From a virus, in the IMG/VR virus record IMGVR_UViG_3300035670_006355, positions 1 through 24,507 of that record: a stretch of 24,507 nucleotides of DNA; one strand, 5' to 3'. Positions 4,982 through 18,802 of this stretch are shown here, in pieces. A program made the position numbers and the translations under genes. The notes under the pieces were generated by a model. The model was given only the letters and a program-made list of their open reading frames with translations, ran no database searches and was not told where the DNA came from. Positions within the stretch are counted from its first letter, which is position 1. Every line of letters begins with the position of its first letter.

Positions 4982-5486
4982 CTTTAGTTTCCTTCTTATT
5001 GGCCATCAGAATTGCCAAGGCCCTATGAGTCATCTCAGTGAGAGATCCTATCATGTAAGTTAAGTGTTCGTTGTTATCACTGTAGTCGATTACGTCCGCT
5101 TCCGCTGCGTCCTGAAGCTGAAGAACCGCATGTAAGCATTCGTGAGCTATGGTATTAGCCAAGGTAAACTCATCTTGCATCTTACCATCCGGCATCCTTG
5201 CCGTAGGGTTAATAAAAATAGTTAATACATTGTTCTGCAGTAGGCACGAACCAAAGGGCGCTAAGTTACGAAGGTAATCTTCGTCTTTCTCATCCTCATC
5301 TAAGTCCGGAGTTTCTGGGTCTTCTACTAACACTGTTAGCTGGAATACTGGAGCCGGAAAGTACGGTAGGTAGATAATAATTCCTGAGAACTTCAGTCCG
5401 TGGGTAGCCCCCGGAGACGCCTGGATAACATCATACCCAGTTAATAGTTCCGCCCTTTTAATATCACTTTGCTTAAATTTTTTCAT
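4839..5486 (-). CDS. Putative zinc metallopeptidase-like protein (HECLH motif)
   Basis: The 215-aa product has a mixed N-terminal domain with an acidic patch at about 59-70, then the zinc-binding HExxH signature at 115-119 (IAHECLHAV). A Glu at 140 in NNEHLTYMIG is placed like the third ligand of gluzincin-type folds. Residues about 163-215 are a low-complexity Lys/Ser/Thr/Gly/Asp tail. Similar HExxH proteins occur in other phages with unknown substrates, so proteolysis is an inference from motif. The start ATG overlaps the HNH stop as ATGA. The tail from residue 169 onward is encoded by the same DNA as the start of the helicase, in another frame; a frameshift or a lost earlier stop could explain the long tail. 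Confidence 0.65.
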   Translation of the reverse strand: MKKFKQSDIKRAELLTGYDVIQASPGATHGLKFSGIIIYLPYFPAPVFQLTVLVEDPETPDLDEDEKDEDYLRNLAPFGSCLLQNNVLTIFINPTARMPDGKMQDEFTLANTIAHECLHAVLQLQDAAEADVIDYSDNNEHLTYMIGSLTEMTHRALAILMANKKETKDAPTDSGTTSDSGKGKGVVEDKSKKTSDASGRGSGDGKVDDNQPFGA

Positions 5487-5935
5487 TCAACCACTCCACA
5501 GGTATTTGTTATCCGCAGATATCTGCATACTGTCATCTGAGACACACCAAACATCTTAGCGATGTCTCGCTGAGATACGCCACATTTACTAAAATCAAGT
5601 ATAGCCACAATATCCGTATTAGTCAACTTCTTTTTCTGCACTCGACCTAAATTTTTATAGGAGTGAACTATATTTTCCCTATGACTAATGGCTTCAAGAT
5701 TAATAATCGCATAGTTAGCCTTATTCCCATCGATGTGGTTAATCTCTAGTCCGTCTGGAATTTTTCCGTTATAGTGTTCCCATACAACTCTGTGCGCCAG
5801 TGCTGATTTTTCTCCTGTCCATATAATAGGATATCCGTAAGTATTCTTAGACACGGCCGTTATTTTACAAACATCGGTAAACTCCCGCCAGAATGTGTTT
5901 GTTTTTTCTGAGTATATCAGTTTAGACCTTTTCAC
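5483..5935 (-). CDS. HNH homing endonuclease with C-terminal helix-turn-helix
   Basis: The 150-aa product has an HNH_3-type nuclease core at about residues 46-92. The core holds AHRVVWEHYNG (His-48), EINHIDGNKANYAIINLE (Asn-66, His-67) and the closing SHRENIVHS. After it, SQRDIAKMFGVSQMTVCRYL (121-140) reads as a DNA-binding helix-turn-helix. This build is typical of free-standing phage homing endonucleases. The frame opens at 5944, but GTG at 5935 forms a GTGA overlap with the endonuclease I stop and follows AAGGAG, so I start there. The gene sits between endonuclease I and the metallopeptidase-like gene, and near-identical 18-base sequences bound its two ends, which fits a mobile insertion. 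Confidence 0.88.
   Translation of the reverse strand: MKRSKLIYSEKTNTFWREFTDVCKITAVSKNTYGYPIIWTGEKSALAHRVVWEHYNGKIPDGLEINHIDGNKANYAIINLEAISHRENIVHSYKNLGRVQKKKLTNTDIVAILDFSKCGVSQRDIAKMFGVSQMTVCRYLRITNTCGVVE
5489..5506. repeat. Right member (gene 3' end) of 18-bp near-repeat flanking the HNH gene
   Basis: AACCACTCCACAGGTATT here matches AACCACTCCTTAGGTATT at 5939-5956 with two mismatches; both lie the same way and both are followed within a few bases (leftward) by TTTTCA. The pair brackets the HNH gene. On the coding strand the repeat provides the GGAG ribosome site and the end of the upstream frame. Confidence 0.8.
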
Positions 5936-6318
5936 CGTAACCACTCCTTAGGTATTATCTTGTCGGCATACATAAATCCGTGTTTATTGCACCAATCAGC
6001 ATAGGTTGACTTTGCTCCCTTGTATAACTTACTCTTAGAGTTAGTAAAAATAAATCGGATATCTAGTTTAGGATTTTGAGCACGAATTAAAAGGTGCTTC
6101 TGCCTGTCCGCAAGCATAAATCGTCCCTTAGTCTCAATGATTATACCGTTAGGTAATACGAAATCTGGCGTATATTTATGCTCTTTTTCTGGGACAATGT
6201 AGCGTAGTTGCCACTGTTCATAGTCGGCCGCTACTCCTGCTTTCTGTAACTGTTTGGCTATATCCATCTCCAAACCGCTGCGGAATCCTAGCTTTTTACC
6301 TAAATTCTTCCTAGCCAT
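5932..6318 (-). CDS. Endonuclease I (Holliday-junction resolvase), T7 gp3-like
   Basis: The 128-aa product matches the T7 endonuclease I family over its whole length. The signature is GLE (Glu-17), YTPDF (Asp-52) and IETKG (Glu-62, Lys-64), then KHLLIR and SKLYKG, and a C-terminal DKIIPKEW. The four catalytic residues have the same spacing as T7 Glu-20, Asp-55, Glu-65 and Lys-67, with a three-residue shorter N-terminus. The enzyme cuts branched DNA and, in T7, helps debranch replication products before packaging and degrade host DNA. The ATG at 6318 has AGGAG at five bases. It follows the polymerase gene and is followed by the HNH gene. Confidence 0.95.
   Translation of the reverse strand: MARKNLGKKLGFRSGLEMDIAKQLQKAGVAADYEQWQLRYIVPEKEHKYTPDFVLPNGIIIETKGRFMLADRQKHLLIRAQNPKLDIRFIFTNSKSKLYKGAKSTYADWCNKHGFMYADKIIPKEWLR
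5939..5956. repeat. Left member (gene 5' end) of 18-bp near-repeat flanking the HNH gene
   Basis: This copy contains the last codons of endonuclease I (EWL) and the AAGGAG ribosome site for the HNH gene. Its partner at 5489-5506 gives the same service to the next gene. The arrangement suggests that the HNH gene arrived with, or created, a copy of this junction. Confidence 0.8.
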
Positions 6319-11541: not shown

Positions 11542-11570
11542 ATATTAACACAACCAAGTGTTAATGCAAA
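11542..11570 (-). promoter_or_regulatory. Candidate promoter and operator of the leftward operon
   Basis: On the minus strand, TTTGCA (11570-11565), a 17-base spacer and TAATAT (11547-11542) approximate a sigma-70 promoter, with a start site about 25 bases before the first gene. The inverted repeat ATTAACAC-aaccaa-GTGTTAAT (11544-11565) fills the spacer and part of both boxes, a typical place for a repressor to bind. The boxes are imperfect, so this rests on position and symmetry. Confidence 0.4.
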
Positions 11571-11800: not shown

Positions 11801-11934
11801 AAAGTGGCGTAGCCGCATTTAAGTATACTTTAAGTTTAAGTATACTTAAGTATATATCTATTCTAACGGCTTCGCCTGTTAAAGTTAAGGCGCGTACGCG
11901 CTTTAAAGAAGTAAAGGCGCGAATGCGCTTTTAC
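11801..11934 (+). repeat. Series of GC-stem hairpins in AT-rich DNA
   Basis: Four compact hairpins follow one another: 11801-11820 (GTGGC-GTA-GCCGC), 11865-11880 (AACGGC-TTC-GCC-t-GTT), 11885-11906 (11-bp near-palindrome centred on GTAC) and 11911-11934 (10-bp stem with GAAT loop). At least three of them contain a G-U pair that is valid only in rightward RNA. None is followed by a long U-run. They may be leader RNA structures, processing sites or weak terminators. Confidence 0.6.
11818..11850. promoter_or_regulatory. Tandem TTAAGTATACTTAA palindromes, operator-like
   Basis: The unit TTTAAGTATACTT(T)AAG occurs twice back to back (11818-11834 and 11835-11850). The second holds a perfect 14-bp palindrome TTAAGTATACTTAA; the first has one additional T. 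Paired palindromes of this size are typical binding sites for dimeric repressors. The protein that would bind is not identified. Confidence 0.5.
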
Positions 11935-11961
11935 ATATAAGGATTGATAATATACCTTATG

Positions 11962-11975
11962 TTTCAAGTTTGAAA
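11962..11975. promoter_or_regulatory. TTTCAA-gt-TTGAAA palindrome, copy A
   Basis: This 6+2+6 inverted repeat lies within the exact 32-base block at the head of leader copy A; the same site is at 12236-12249 in copy B. Its identity in both copies, while nearby sequence has drifted, suggests a bound site. Confidence 0.4.
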
Positions 11976-12099
11976 TAGTTGTAAAAAAGTATTAGATTGG
12001 CTACCAGAGCGAATTTGCCGTAAATAGCATAAATAGACCTCTTTTGTAAATCTCTCTGAAACTCAAGCCTGGCGTGGCTTAGATACAAATTTGAAGGTT

Positions 12100-12111
12100 A
12101 AACGATCGTTT
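12100..12111. promoter_or_regulatory. AAACGATCGTTT palindrome, copy A
   Basis: This perfect 12-bp palindrome sits inside a 19-base block identical in both leader copies, which suggests an operator or other protein-binding site. Confidence 0.45.
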
Positions 12112-12235
12112 TAATTATCCCTATGTAAGTTGAAGCCTCTGAAACCAGCGCCAGTAGGGCTTTACAGAGAGTTTGTCCTTATCTTTATGTAAGGGGAGAA
12201 TAAGTAGCAGAATTTTAGAGAAAACGAAAAATATG

Positions 12236-12249
12236 TTTCAAGTTTGAAA
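12236..12249. promoter_or_regulatory. TTTCAA-gt-TTGAAA palindrome, copy B
   Basis: This is the second copy of the 6+2+6 inverted repeat, about 170 bases before the small terminase start. Confidence 0.4.
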
Positions 12250-12290
12250 TAGTTGTAAAAAAGTGTTACTTAGATACGAAGCTAAATGTT

Positions 12291-12302
12291 AAACGATCGT
12301 TT
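12291..12302. promoter_or_regulatory. AAACGATCGTTT palindrome, copy B
   Basis: This is the second copy of the 12-bp palindrome, about 115 bases before the small terminase start. Its distance fits control of the rightward transcript. Confidence 0.45.
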
Positions 12303-12417
12303 TAATAATAGTTATTATACCCCTATGTAAGTTGATGTCTCCGAAACCCGCGTCAGTAGGGCCTTACAGAGAGTTTGTCAATATCTTTATGTAAGGGGAG
12401 AATAAGGAGCAGAATTT

Positions 12418-13008
12418 ATGGACGGATTAGAGAAAAAGAAAAAGGGGCCAGGTCGCCCACCGAAGGCGGTTAAACTTTTGTCAGATTCTGGAATAGACAT
12501 CGATGGCATAGAAGAAAAATACGCCCTAAAACGGGAGCAAGGAAGTAAGCTAACCCCAGAACTGCTGGTGAGGTTACTTGACGCAGGAACCAGGGGTGAG
12601 AGTATCTCCGAGTTCTGCGCAAAAAATGGATTATCACGCAAGTCTTTCTACAAATATCTTGAAGACGAGACTTTCGCGGAAGCGTTCGAGCACTACAAGA
12701 TGCACGTACAAGCCTATTACACGAGACTGGCCCGTCTGTCCGCTTTAGAGGGGACGGGAGTTTCGGCGAGCGGCTTGCAGGTAGCGCTCAAATTTGCCCT
12801 AGGGTTCGGCCTTAGGGACGTGCACACTCTAGCGACTGGCGAAACAATTGATGCGCTAAAGGCCATCGCGCCGCCGCAGAACGGCCCCACCAACATAACG
12901 ATTGACCTCACAGGGCTTATGCTCAATAAACGCGAAGGGTTAACGTTAGACAATGCTGATGTAGATAAACCAGCACTGGAAAAGCCGAGGATAATAGACG
13001 CAGATTAA
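12418..13008 (+). CDS. Terminase small subunit with AT-hook-like N-terminus
   Basis: The 196-aa product is the likely DNA-recognition subunit of the packaging motor. An N-terminal KKKKGPGRPPK (7-17) resembles an AT-hook. Residues about 58-100 hold a helix-turn-helix (SISEFCAKNGLSRKSFYKYL) followed by EAFEHYKMHVQAYYTRLARL, the pattern common in small terminases. Its gene directly precedes the large subunit by 10 bases. The ATG at 12418 has AAGGAG upstream. It is the first gene of the virion operon and lies just after a duplicated leader. Confidence 0.85.
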   Translation: MDGLEKKKKGPGRPPKAVKLLSDSGIDIDGIEEKYALKREQGSKLTPELLVRLLDAGTRGESISEFCAKNGLSRKSFYKYLEDETFAEAFEHYKMHVQAYYTRLARLSALEGTGVSASGLQVALKFALGFGLRDVHTLATGETIDALKAIAPPQNGPTNITIDLTGLMLNKREGLTLDNADVDKPALEKPRIIDAD

Positions 13009-13018
13009 AGGGATTGAC

Positions 13019-14566
13019 ATGGCAAAGGTAAATAAAATAAACCTAGCGGCCTCATTAGCCAACGGGTTACCAAAGGAGCACAAGCTATTACAGATGCTGT
13101 CCAGTCTGTTCGAATGGCAGGTTGCTGCTTTGACTGGAGATTTTCGGTACGCAGGTATTATGGCCCACCGAGGCTGCGGTAAGACTGCTCTTATTGTCAT
13201 GCGAGCCGCTCTCCTAGCACTACAGAACAAACGCGTAGAAAAGCGTGTACTTATGCCAGATGTCCAAATAATGATCCTTGGGCCGGAAAAGGGCGAGACA
13301 ATCGCCATGTATGGCCCGCAACTAGAATCGATTCTTGACGGCTTTATAGTGGAGAAATCCTTAGACCCACGTACGTCAATCTCGTACATCAAACTAATCA
13401 ACGGAGCTACCATCCGTATCGACGGACTGTCCGCCATCGAAGGTGAAGTTAGGAGTTCCGGAGGCAAAGAAGCAGAGAGCTTACGTGGTAAGAGTATTGA
13501 CCACATGATGATTGACGAGATTGGTATTATCGACATTCAGCCCTCGATGGCTGCGCTGTTACCTACCTTGTTACGGTATGAGACTAAAGGCACCTTGATG
13601 GTGTTTGGTACGCCTAAATCTAAAGATTCCGGATTCTTCTGGCTGTGGGACAAGTGGTTGCCAGCGAACGGAGGAAAGCGTATTAAGATTCCTCTAGGGC
13701 ATGAACTCAGCCCGTTTACTAAAGCCCAGTACGAAGACGCCACGCGAATGTACAGCACTGTACCAGGAGTATGGGAATCGGAATACATGCTAGAGTTTAA
13801 GACCAACGATGTCGCCTCTGTCTACGGCTTAACCATTGACAGGATGATATCCGACGGCAGGATAATAGAAGACGATACCATAGTTCACAATGACCCAACG
13901 TTTGTGGCCCTAGACCTAGGATTCAACGACGATACTGCATTAATTCTGTATCAGGTGGACATGGACGGAAATCCTAAGATTATTGACTACTATGTGAACA
14001 ATAGGCAGCCAATAGAAACATATCTGGATTGGATAGCCGGTTGGTCTACGATGGTGAACTTAAAGTACGTCTACTTACCGCACGATTCAAACGCGCAGGT
14101 AATAGGAAGACAGTTTACGATAGCGGAACAGTTCGCAAAGGCCCTTAGGCCGTTGAACATCCGTGTAGGTATCCTGAAGAAATCGCCACGGGTGGCATAC
14201 GAAATCCCGATTGTAAAAACGATTCTCGGAAAAACCAAAGTTCTAAAGCGTTGCATCCCAATGCTAGACAAATTACGGGAGTATTCCTACGAACCTAGCA
14301 AGCTAGCCATTGGAGAATATACTGATATCCCAAAGGCAAGACAGGATGACCACGTAGCTGACGCTATTCGTTACTTCGCCATGTCTTACAATTCTAGGTA
14401 CGCCGACCTTACCAACGAGAACAAGTTGGAATACGCGGAACGTGGGCTTATTAACAGCGAGTATTTATCCACTACTGAGGCAAATCTACAACAGTATCTC
14501 AAACGTAGAGAACAGAAACCACAACAGGCCTTTCGCATTAGGCACCCGATAAAGATTATGAGGTAA
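13019..14566 (+). CDS. Terminase large subunit
   Basis: The 515-aa ATPase and nuclease drives DNA into the prohead and cuts concatemers. The ATPase domain has Walker A HRGCGKTA (50-57), Walker B MMIDE (163-167) and the coupling motif FGTPK (196-200). The RNase H-like nuclease has FVALDLGFNDD with Asp-299, PHDSNAQ, and a C-terminal DDHVADAIRY with Asp-443, Asp-444 and Asp-448. Length is normal for the family. The start ATG has AAGGG upstream, and the portal gene begins two bases after its stop. Confidence 0.95.
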   Translation: MAKVNKINLAASLANGLPKEHKLLQMLSSLFEWQVAALTGDFRYAGIMAHRGCGKTALIVMRAALLALQNKRVEKRVLMPDVQIMILGPEKGETIAMYGPQLESILDGFIVEKSLDPRTSISYIKLINGATIRIDGLSAIEGEVRSSGGKEAESLRGKSIDHMMIDEIGIIDIQPSMAALLPTLLRYETKGTLMVFGTPKSKDSGFFWLWDKWLPANGGKRIKIPLGHELSPFTKAQYEDATRMYSTVPGVWESEYMLEFKTNDVASVYGLTIDRMISDGRIIEDDTIVHNDPTFVALDLGFNDDTALILYQVDMDGNPKIIDYYVNNRQPIETYLDWIAGWSTMVNLKYVYLPHDSNAQVIGRQFTIAEQFAKALRPLNIRVGILKKSPRVAYEIPIVKTILGKTKVLKRCIPMLDKLREYSYEPSKLAIGEYTDIPKARQDDHVADAIRYFAMSYNSRYADLTNENKLEYAERGLINSEYLSTTEANLQQYLKRREQKPQQAFRIRHPIKIMR

Positions 14567-17710: not shown

Positions 17711-18802
17711 ATGTCTGATGTAATCGCAACTGGGGGATTACCCTCAGTAATCGGAACGCTTTTACTGCGTTCGCAAAGTGCACGTGCTGGTGTTATCAAC
17801 AGTACCGTATTTAAAGGTAGCCCATTATTGTCCATTTTGGCACAAGCTGGCGCCATCAAACCCTTAGAAAGCTCCATGAGCATTGCGGTCAAAGACCCAG
17901 GTGCTGCTGTTACTACGTACTTCGAAACGGTTAACGCCGCCGGTACAGTTACCAGTTCCTTGTCGGCCGACTTAAGTGCCAACTTACTCATGCGTCACTA
18001 CATGCCAGCGTTCTTAAACAGTTCGTTGATGATTGACGCTCGTAAATTGCAGCTTATCAAAGGTCAAAATGCAATTATTGACTACCTAACCGAAGTTACT
18101 ATGCAACACGCGAATACTAACGCTGTTGGATTTAATGGCCTCGTGTTATCTGGTTTCACTGCTACTGCAGGTACAGCAAACAACATCTCCGGTCTTGCAA
18201 CCCAATTGCCGGTAGTTGCTCGTGTTAGCTCCGCACCTACAGTTCACGCTAGTGACCATGGTGGTATCTACGAAGCCGCCGCTGCTCGTTTAGCTCCTAA
18301 ACGTTTAGTTAACCAAACCATCACCAGCGCAACCGTTGTCGGTCTTATCCGTCAAATGGCTGCTAGCCTTAAAGCTTCTGGTGTTGACAGCACACAGAAA
18401 TTTGCATTGGCAACCCAATCAGGTTTCTTAGACTTAGCTGCCGCTATGGATGGTAAATTTAGCCCGACCCAATTACGCATTCTTGACTTAGGTTTCGAAG
18501 GCATTTCGATTGGTCAAACGGCTATCATTATGGAAGGTGGATTAGACGAAATCACGATTAAGGGCGCTGTAGCTGATGCAGATACGTTCTTCTTTATCGA
18601 TGGCGATGCAGTTAAACTGTACTCCGCTTCTGGCGCGTCTATCGCTCCTGATGCGAACGTTCTGTTTACTGACAGTGGCGACCGTGTCATCTCCGACACC
18701 AACGTTAACAACGCTATCCGTAGCCAATTCTTTGGTCAGTTAGTTGTTGAAAAACCGATGAAATGCGGTGTATTGACAACCAGCTCAACCAACCACCAAT
18801 AA
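17711..18802 (+). CDS. Major capsid protein
   Basis: The 363-aa product is the likely HK97-fold head shell subunit. The call rests on position after the scaffold, length, and content: Ala/Ser/Thr-rich, few charged clusters, with alternating hydrophobic segments. The ribosome site GAAAGGAA is strong. Codons differ from neighbouring genes: Arg is mostly CGT, and Ala and Gly are often GCT and GGT, the pattern of a very highly expressed gene. Four hairpins follow the stop, a place where phages often set a terminator to raise capsid transcript level. No cleavage signal is obvious. Confidence 0.85.
   Translation: MSDVIATGGLPSVIGTLLLRSQSARAGVINSTVFKGSPLLSILAQAGAIKPLESSMSIAVKDPGAAVTTYFETVNAAGTVTSSLSADLSANLLMRHYMPAFLNSSLMIDARKLQLIKGQNAIIDYLTEVTMQHANTNAVGFNGLVLSGFTATAGTANNISGLATQLPVVARVSSAPTVHASDHGGIYEAAAARLAPKRLVNQTITSATVVGLIRQMAASLKASGVDSTQKFALATQSGFLDLAAAMDGKFSPTQLRILDLGFEGISIGQTAIIMEGGLDEITIKGAVADADTFFFIDGDAVKLYSASGASIAPDANVLFTDSGDRVISDTNVNNAIRSQFFGQLVVEKPMKCGVLTTSSTNHQ

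Follow-up and report, generated by a model that had tools for sequence, protein, structure and literature searches.

Why does a phage carry, directly before its terminase genes, two copies of the same leader, of which only one has a start codon? The question is raised by IMG/VR record IMGVR_UViG_3300035670_006355, an unclassified phage whose 24,507 bases, taken entire, form the window analysed here; the record is listed as linear and is therefore probably a fragment. The repeated element runs up to and into terS, the gene for the terminase small subunit, and its two copies are called A (upstream) and B (downstream). We consider it very likely that they arose by a single tandem duplication of the late-operon leader together with the start of terS, copy A being translationally silent and copy B driving terS. 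The feature is real and was correctly described in an earlier sequence-only reading of this DNA, which nevertheless over-interpreted it as a pair of operators doubled under selection.

Two copies of the terminase leader

Aligned with each other, A and B are identical at 174 of 191 ungapped columns, with 17 mismatches (~9% divergence) and three indels (Table 1), which bears out the tandem duplication of the terminase leader proposed from the letters. The shared blocks, previously put at 32/32, 19/19 and about 88/97 bases, measure 33/33 (11958-11990 and 12232-12264, the longest exact repeat), 19/19 (12097-12115 and 12288-12306) and 88/97 (12119-12215 against 12321-12417). Chance is excluded as the source of this similarity: self-blast gives E = 3e-31 for the largest block, and block 1 had zero chance matches in 100 shuffles. 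Each copy contains the octamer TATGTAAG twice (12122 and 12186 in A, 12324 and 12388 in B), and it is absent from the rest of the window.

The other particulars of the sequence-only reading also stand. Both palindromes are exact between the copies, the ATG and neighbouring bases are missing from A (10 nucleotides (nt), 12417-12426), AAGGAG has become AAGTAG there (12404-12409 against 12202-12207), and the ~80 bases that A holds in excess of B amount to 83 nt (11995-12077). The alignment adds three features to these: 11 nt present in B only, an extension of the repeat for 17 nt into terS codons 4-9 (16/17 identical), and the direct abutment of the copies, the final base of A adjoining the first base of B. 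The 83 nt found in A only, which may be ancestral as proposed earlier, resemble the B leader weakly (shuffle P 0.004-0.015). The similarity is suggestive of a possible third, older copy, although the B leader is not their clear best match within the window.

Table 1. Positions of the duplicated leader, its parts and the surrounding genes in the window.
Feature	Position	Strand	Remarks
Copy A of duplicated leader	11958-12231	+	274 nt; start codon absent
Copy B of duplicated leader	12232-12443	+	212 nt; extends into terS codon 9
Block 1 of A	11958-11994	+	36/37 identical to 12232-12268; TTTCAAGTTTGAAA at 11962-11975
Block 1 of B	12232-12268	+	TTTCAAGTTTGAAA at 12236-12249
A-only stretch	11995-12077	+	83 nt
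Block 2 of A	12078-12115	+	palindrome AAACGATCGTTT at 12100-12111
Block 2 of B	12269-12306	+	palindrome AAACGATCGTTT at 12291-12302
B-only stretch	12307-12317	+	11 nt, AATAGTTATTA
Block 3 of A (leader proper)	12116-12214	+	AAGTAG (12202-12207) replacing ribosome-binding site
Block 3 of B (leader proper)	12318-12416	+	ribosome-binding site AAGGAG (12404-12409)
Stretch without counterpart in A	12417-12426	+	10 nt, with terS start codon (12418-12420)
terS, terminase small subunit	12418-13008	+	196 amino acids; PHROG 4102, E 3.5e-4
terL, terminase large subunit	13019-14566	+	PHROG 2, E 4e-26; Pfam Terminase_6N
Primase/helicase-type protein, exonuclease, family A DNA polymerase, endonuclease I (Pfam PF05367), Dda-like helicase	from 11510 leftwards	-	
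terS, terL, portal, then further genes in structural-module order	from 12418 rightwards	+	
Candidate major capsid protein	17711-18802	+	assigned by gene order alone; no Pfam match

Origin of the duplication

The two copies are collinear, lie in the same orientation and abut, as in a tandem segmental duplication, and no other gene is flanked by them. The clean junction, together with the end of the unit inside terS codon 9, points to a simple tandem duplication of the leader plus the terS start. The duplicated unit would have measured ~270-290 nt, extending from the late-operon leader through the ribosome-binding site to about the ninth codon of terS. A 10-nt deletion would subsequently have removed the start codon of copy A, and a G to T change would have destroyed its ribosome-binding site, so that translation of terS would be driven by the downstream copy B only and A would persist upstream as an untranslated copy of the leader. 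Because A retains 17 nt of terS codons 4-9 after the gap, it probably descends by duplication from a unit that once bore a start codon. No open reading frame runs through copy A, and the earlier conclusion that it is probably not translated, having no start codon and a damaged ribosome-binding site, agrees with our results. Nor does copy A have the form of a terS pseudogene, as it extends only to the position matching codon 9, and no coding remnant beyond the first codons is present. The proposal that an old gene duplication was trimmed down to its control region thus becomes unnecessary, since a single duplication with these breakpoints suffices.

Some points weigh against so simple an origin. 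With 9% divergence and three indels the duplication is not fresh, barring recombination between two related phages, and no relative was found by which the events could be polarised. Copies that already differed by 9% could have been joined by a crossover between such phages, in which case the divergence does not date the duplication. Nothing that we found contradicts the duplication as such, which we regard as a new example of a known and fairly ordinary phage rearrangement.

We also considered, and rejected, a small conserved leader peptide. Both copies contain an open TTG frame of 20 codons (12130-12192 and 12332-12394), but 6 of its 7 differing codons (read by hand) alter the amino acid, so that the frame gives no sign of coding constraint.

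An assembly artefact or a chimera of strains is extremely unlikely as the source of the repeat. The record, a virus contig from a metagenome, has unplaced ends and opens at its first base with a perfect 25-nt inverted repeat, a frequent mark of end artefacts. The copies themselves, however, differ by 9% and three indels, and their junction (12225-12240) holds no exact overlap long enough for joining by an assembler. Since no exact repeat exceeds 33 nt, less than the length of a read, and the joint does not lie at a shared k-mer, short reads would span the repeat, making misassembly improbable.

Is copy A kept for regulation?

Copy A may either persist as a tolerated relic or provide a second set of sites for control or packaging proteins. 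The sequence-only reading took the exact palindromes to imply that the leader is kept for regulation, an argument that is not supported, as runs without mismatch are of the length expected by chance. When the 17 mismatches were placed randomly in the 191 columns, the longest clean run reached at least 33 in 54% of placements (P = 0.54, 33 being the median outcome), and all 26 palindrome columns were spared with P = 0.07; transitions account for 9 of the 17 mismatches. These statistics mean that the mismatch pattern does not require selection. Conservation of operators or promoters above the background of the repeat was not observed, and exact palindromes inside a 9%-diverged repeat do not on their own indicate selection.

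It is possible, though rather doubtful, that copy A is kept because late transcription is increased or tuned by a doubled set of operators or promoters. Such a role would suit the location in a divergent control region and the identity of both palindromes between the copies, and of the mismatches only 1 falls within the 56 columns of block 1 and the palindrome block, the other 16 lying in the remaining 135 columns (a partition chosen post hoc). Besides the agreement of the clean runs and spared palindromes with chance, it is opposed by the promoter scoring, which detected no strong sigma-70-like promoter shared by A and B. TTGAAA-17-TAGATT at 11970 occurs in A only, with its second hexamer in the A-only bases, and a shared site, TTGTC(A/C)-17-GAGAAT, falls at the ribosome-binding site. 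The repeat motifs occur nowhere else in the 24.5 kb, and none of the unit's 20-mers is enriched in the rest of the window relative to control pieces, which, as far as a fragment can tell, argues against a dispersed phage-polymerase promoter; a phage-polymerase promoter family was rejected because related 20-mers show no such excess.

A precedent for doubled promoters comes from a paper on engineered T7, which cites a class-II promoter duplication seen during the adaptation of another phage (PMC5592923). The likeness to adapting T7-like phages, as mentioned there, is that a control segment before a late or middle gene is duplicated, changing its dose, whereas here the event includes the ribosome-binding site and first codons, and a promoter in either copy is only hypothetical.

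We rejected a structured leader RNA as a further candidate: the leader has no match in Rfam and folds within 1 standard deviation of shuffles, the best sub-hairpin giving z = -1.7 in B and z = -0.3 in A.

That copy A is a neutral relic, a chance tandem duplication not yet lost and without function, has in our estimation somewhat less than an even chance. The mismatches and indels are distributed as expected by chance and the translation signals of A are damaged, both consistent with the absence of use. Persistence to 9% divergence, on the other hand, hints at use, or else at an origin by recombination between lineages. In compact phage genomes, recombination readily removes direct repeats of ~100 nt and 90% identity. 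If copy A is functional, it would be a natural case in which late expression or packaging was retuned by a phage through a copied control segment and a silenced extra start codon.

A possible packaging site

A pac or cos region is expected to have repeats immediately before or at terS, as is the case here, and in SPP1/SF6 direct repeats are found in the noncoding leader, in the ribosome-binding site and where the small terminase gene begins (PMC4737164, PMC6316719). The location of the window's repeat fits an SPP1-type pac layout by analogy, the repeated unit spanning the same parts. The predicted TerS has a weak helix-turn-helix match at residues 44-84 (Pfam HTH_7 E 0.004, under the family cut-off) and a basic N-terminus (KKKKGPGRPPK), as might suit a protein binding there. 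We nevertheless find it unlikely that the leader forms part of a packaging start site (pac or cosB-like), whose TerS binding region the duplication would have doubled. What points to such a site is its position and the repeats only, and the repeats differ in kind: short boxes in SPP1, here one unit of ~270 nt repeated once. No sequence similarity to the SPP1/SF6 pac region was found. Furthermore, the DNA-binding domain of SF6 TerS showed no sequence preference within pac, so that repeats need not be binding sites.

A two-part site for packaging and late control is very unlikely. Under this proposal the untranslated copy A would bind TerS or a late regulator while B is translated, and the terminase would thereby control both its own expression and the start of packaging.

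As a separate observation, TerS begins with MDGLEKKKKGPGRPPK (12430-12465), a basic, AT-hook-like stretch preceding the weak helix-turn-helix.

Distribution in related phages

Close relatives were not found in any of the phage, viral, plasmid or genome collections searched. Viral contigs were scanned with terL, portal, the candidate major capsid protein, DNA polymerase, a DNA pattern of the leader, and degenerate TerL and polymerase motifs; genome contigs were searched with terL, and phages and plasmids with the leader by blastn. These searches returned only distant relatives or chance matches, with identities of 21-28% for terL and of up to about 27% for the best segments of the portal. The capsid candidate had no match in protein searches, and no relative of the leader DNA was present in phages and plasmids (blastn) or in viral contigs (exact pattern). 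The locus represents a genuine duplication of a leader in a phage for which no close relatives were found.

The comparison covered 39 loci of distant relatives in which 2.5 kb or more precede terL, and which have no leader sequence in common with the window. None of the 39 has, in those 2.5 kb, a direct repeat of at least 40 nt within 800 nt, an absence that speaks for a relic; one has a 32-nt repeat before terL. The doubled leader is not a general feature of these distantly related phages. Stenotrophomonas phage BUCT555 and related podovirus-like phages share with the window the divergent layout, in which one strand carries terS, terL and a homologous portal and the opposite strand the other genes, the portals being 22% identical over the alignment. 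They differ in that a leader duplication upstream of terL was not detected in them, and their proteins are only 22-23% identical.

One of two contigs matched by the TerL motifs (L088) carries an 84-nt repeat of 96% identity (5307-5390 and 5870-5953). It is promoter-and-leader-like and precedes two small early genes that point away from terL, and apart from a short A/T-rich stretch it is unrelated in sequence to the leader of the window.

Genomic setting and neighbouring elements

The duplicated leader lies in a divergent region of ~900 nt that separates early genes on the minus strand from packaging and structural genes on the plus strand. This layout is supported by the open reading frames, by the protein families, and by the GC skew, which turns within the region.

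Several further elements were observed near the repeat. An interrupted palindrome, ATTAACAC-AACCAA-GTGTTAAT, is located directly upstream of the first minus-strand gene (11543-11564) and is operator-like. A/T-rich tandem palindromes with a 17-nt period, TTTAAGTATACTT (11818-11851), also lie in the divergent region and may be an operator or origin element. They are followed at 11882-11935 by two successive hairpin-forming repeats, AAGTTAAGGCGCGTACGCGCTTTAA and AAGTAAAGGCGCGAATGCGCTTTTAC, spaced 27 nt, whose stem ends differ yet still pair (plus-strand fold z = -3.2). At the start of the contig, the perfect 25-nt inverted repeat (1-25 and 77-101, with a 51-nt loop) folds as minus-strand RNA with z = -8.7, and is either a strong hairpin ending the early region or a fold-back artefact of the contig end.
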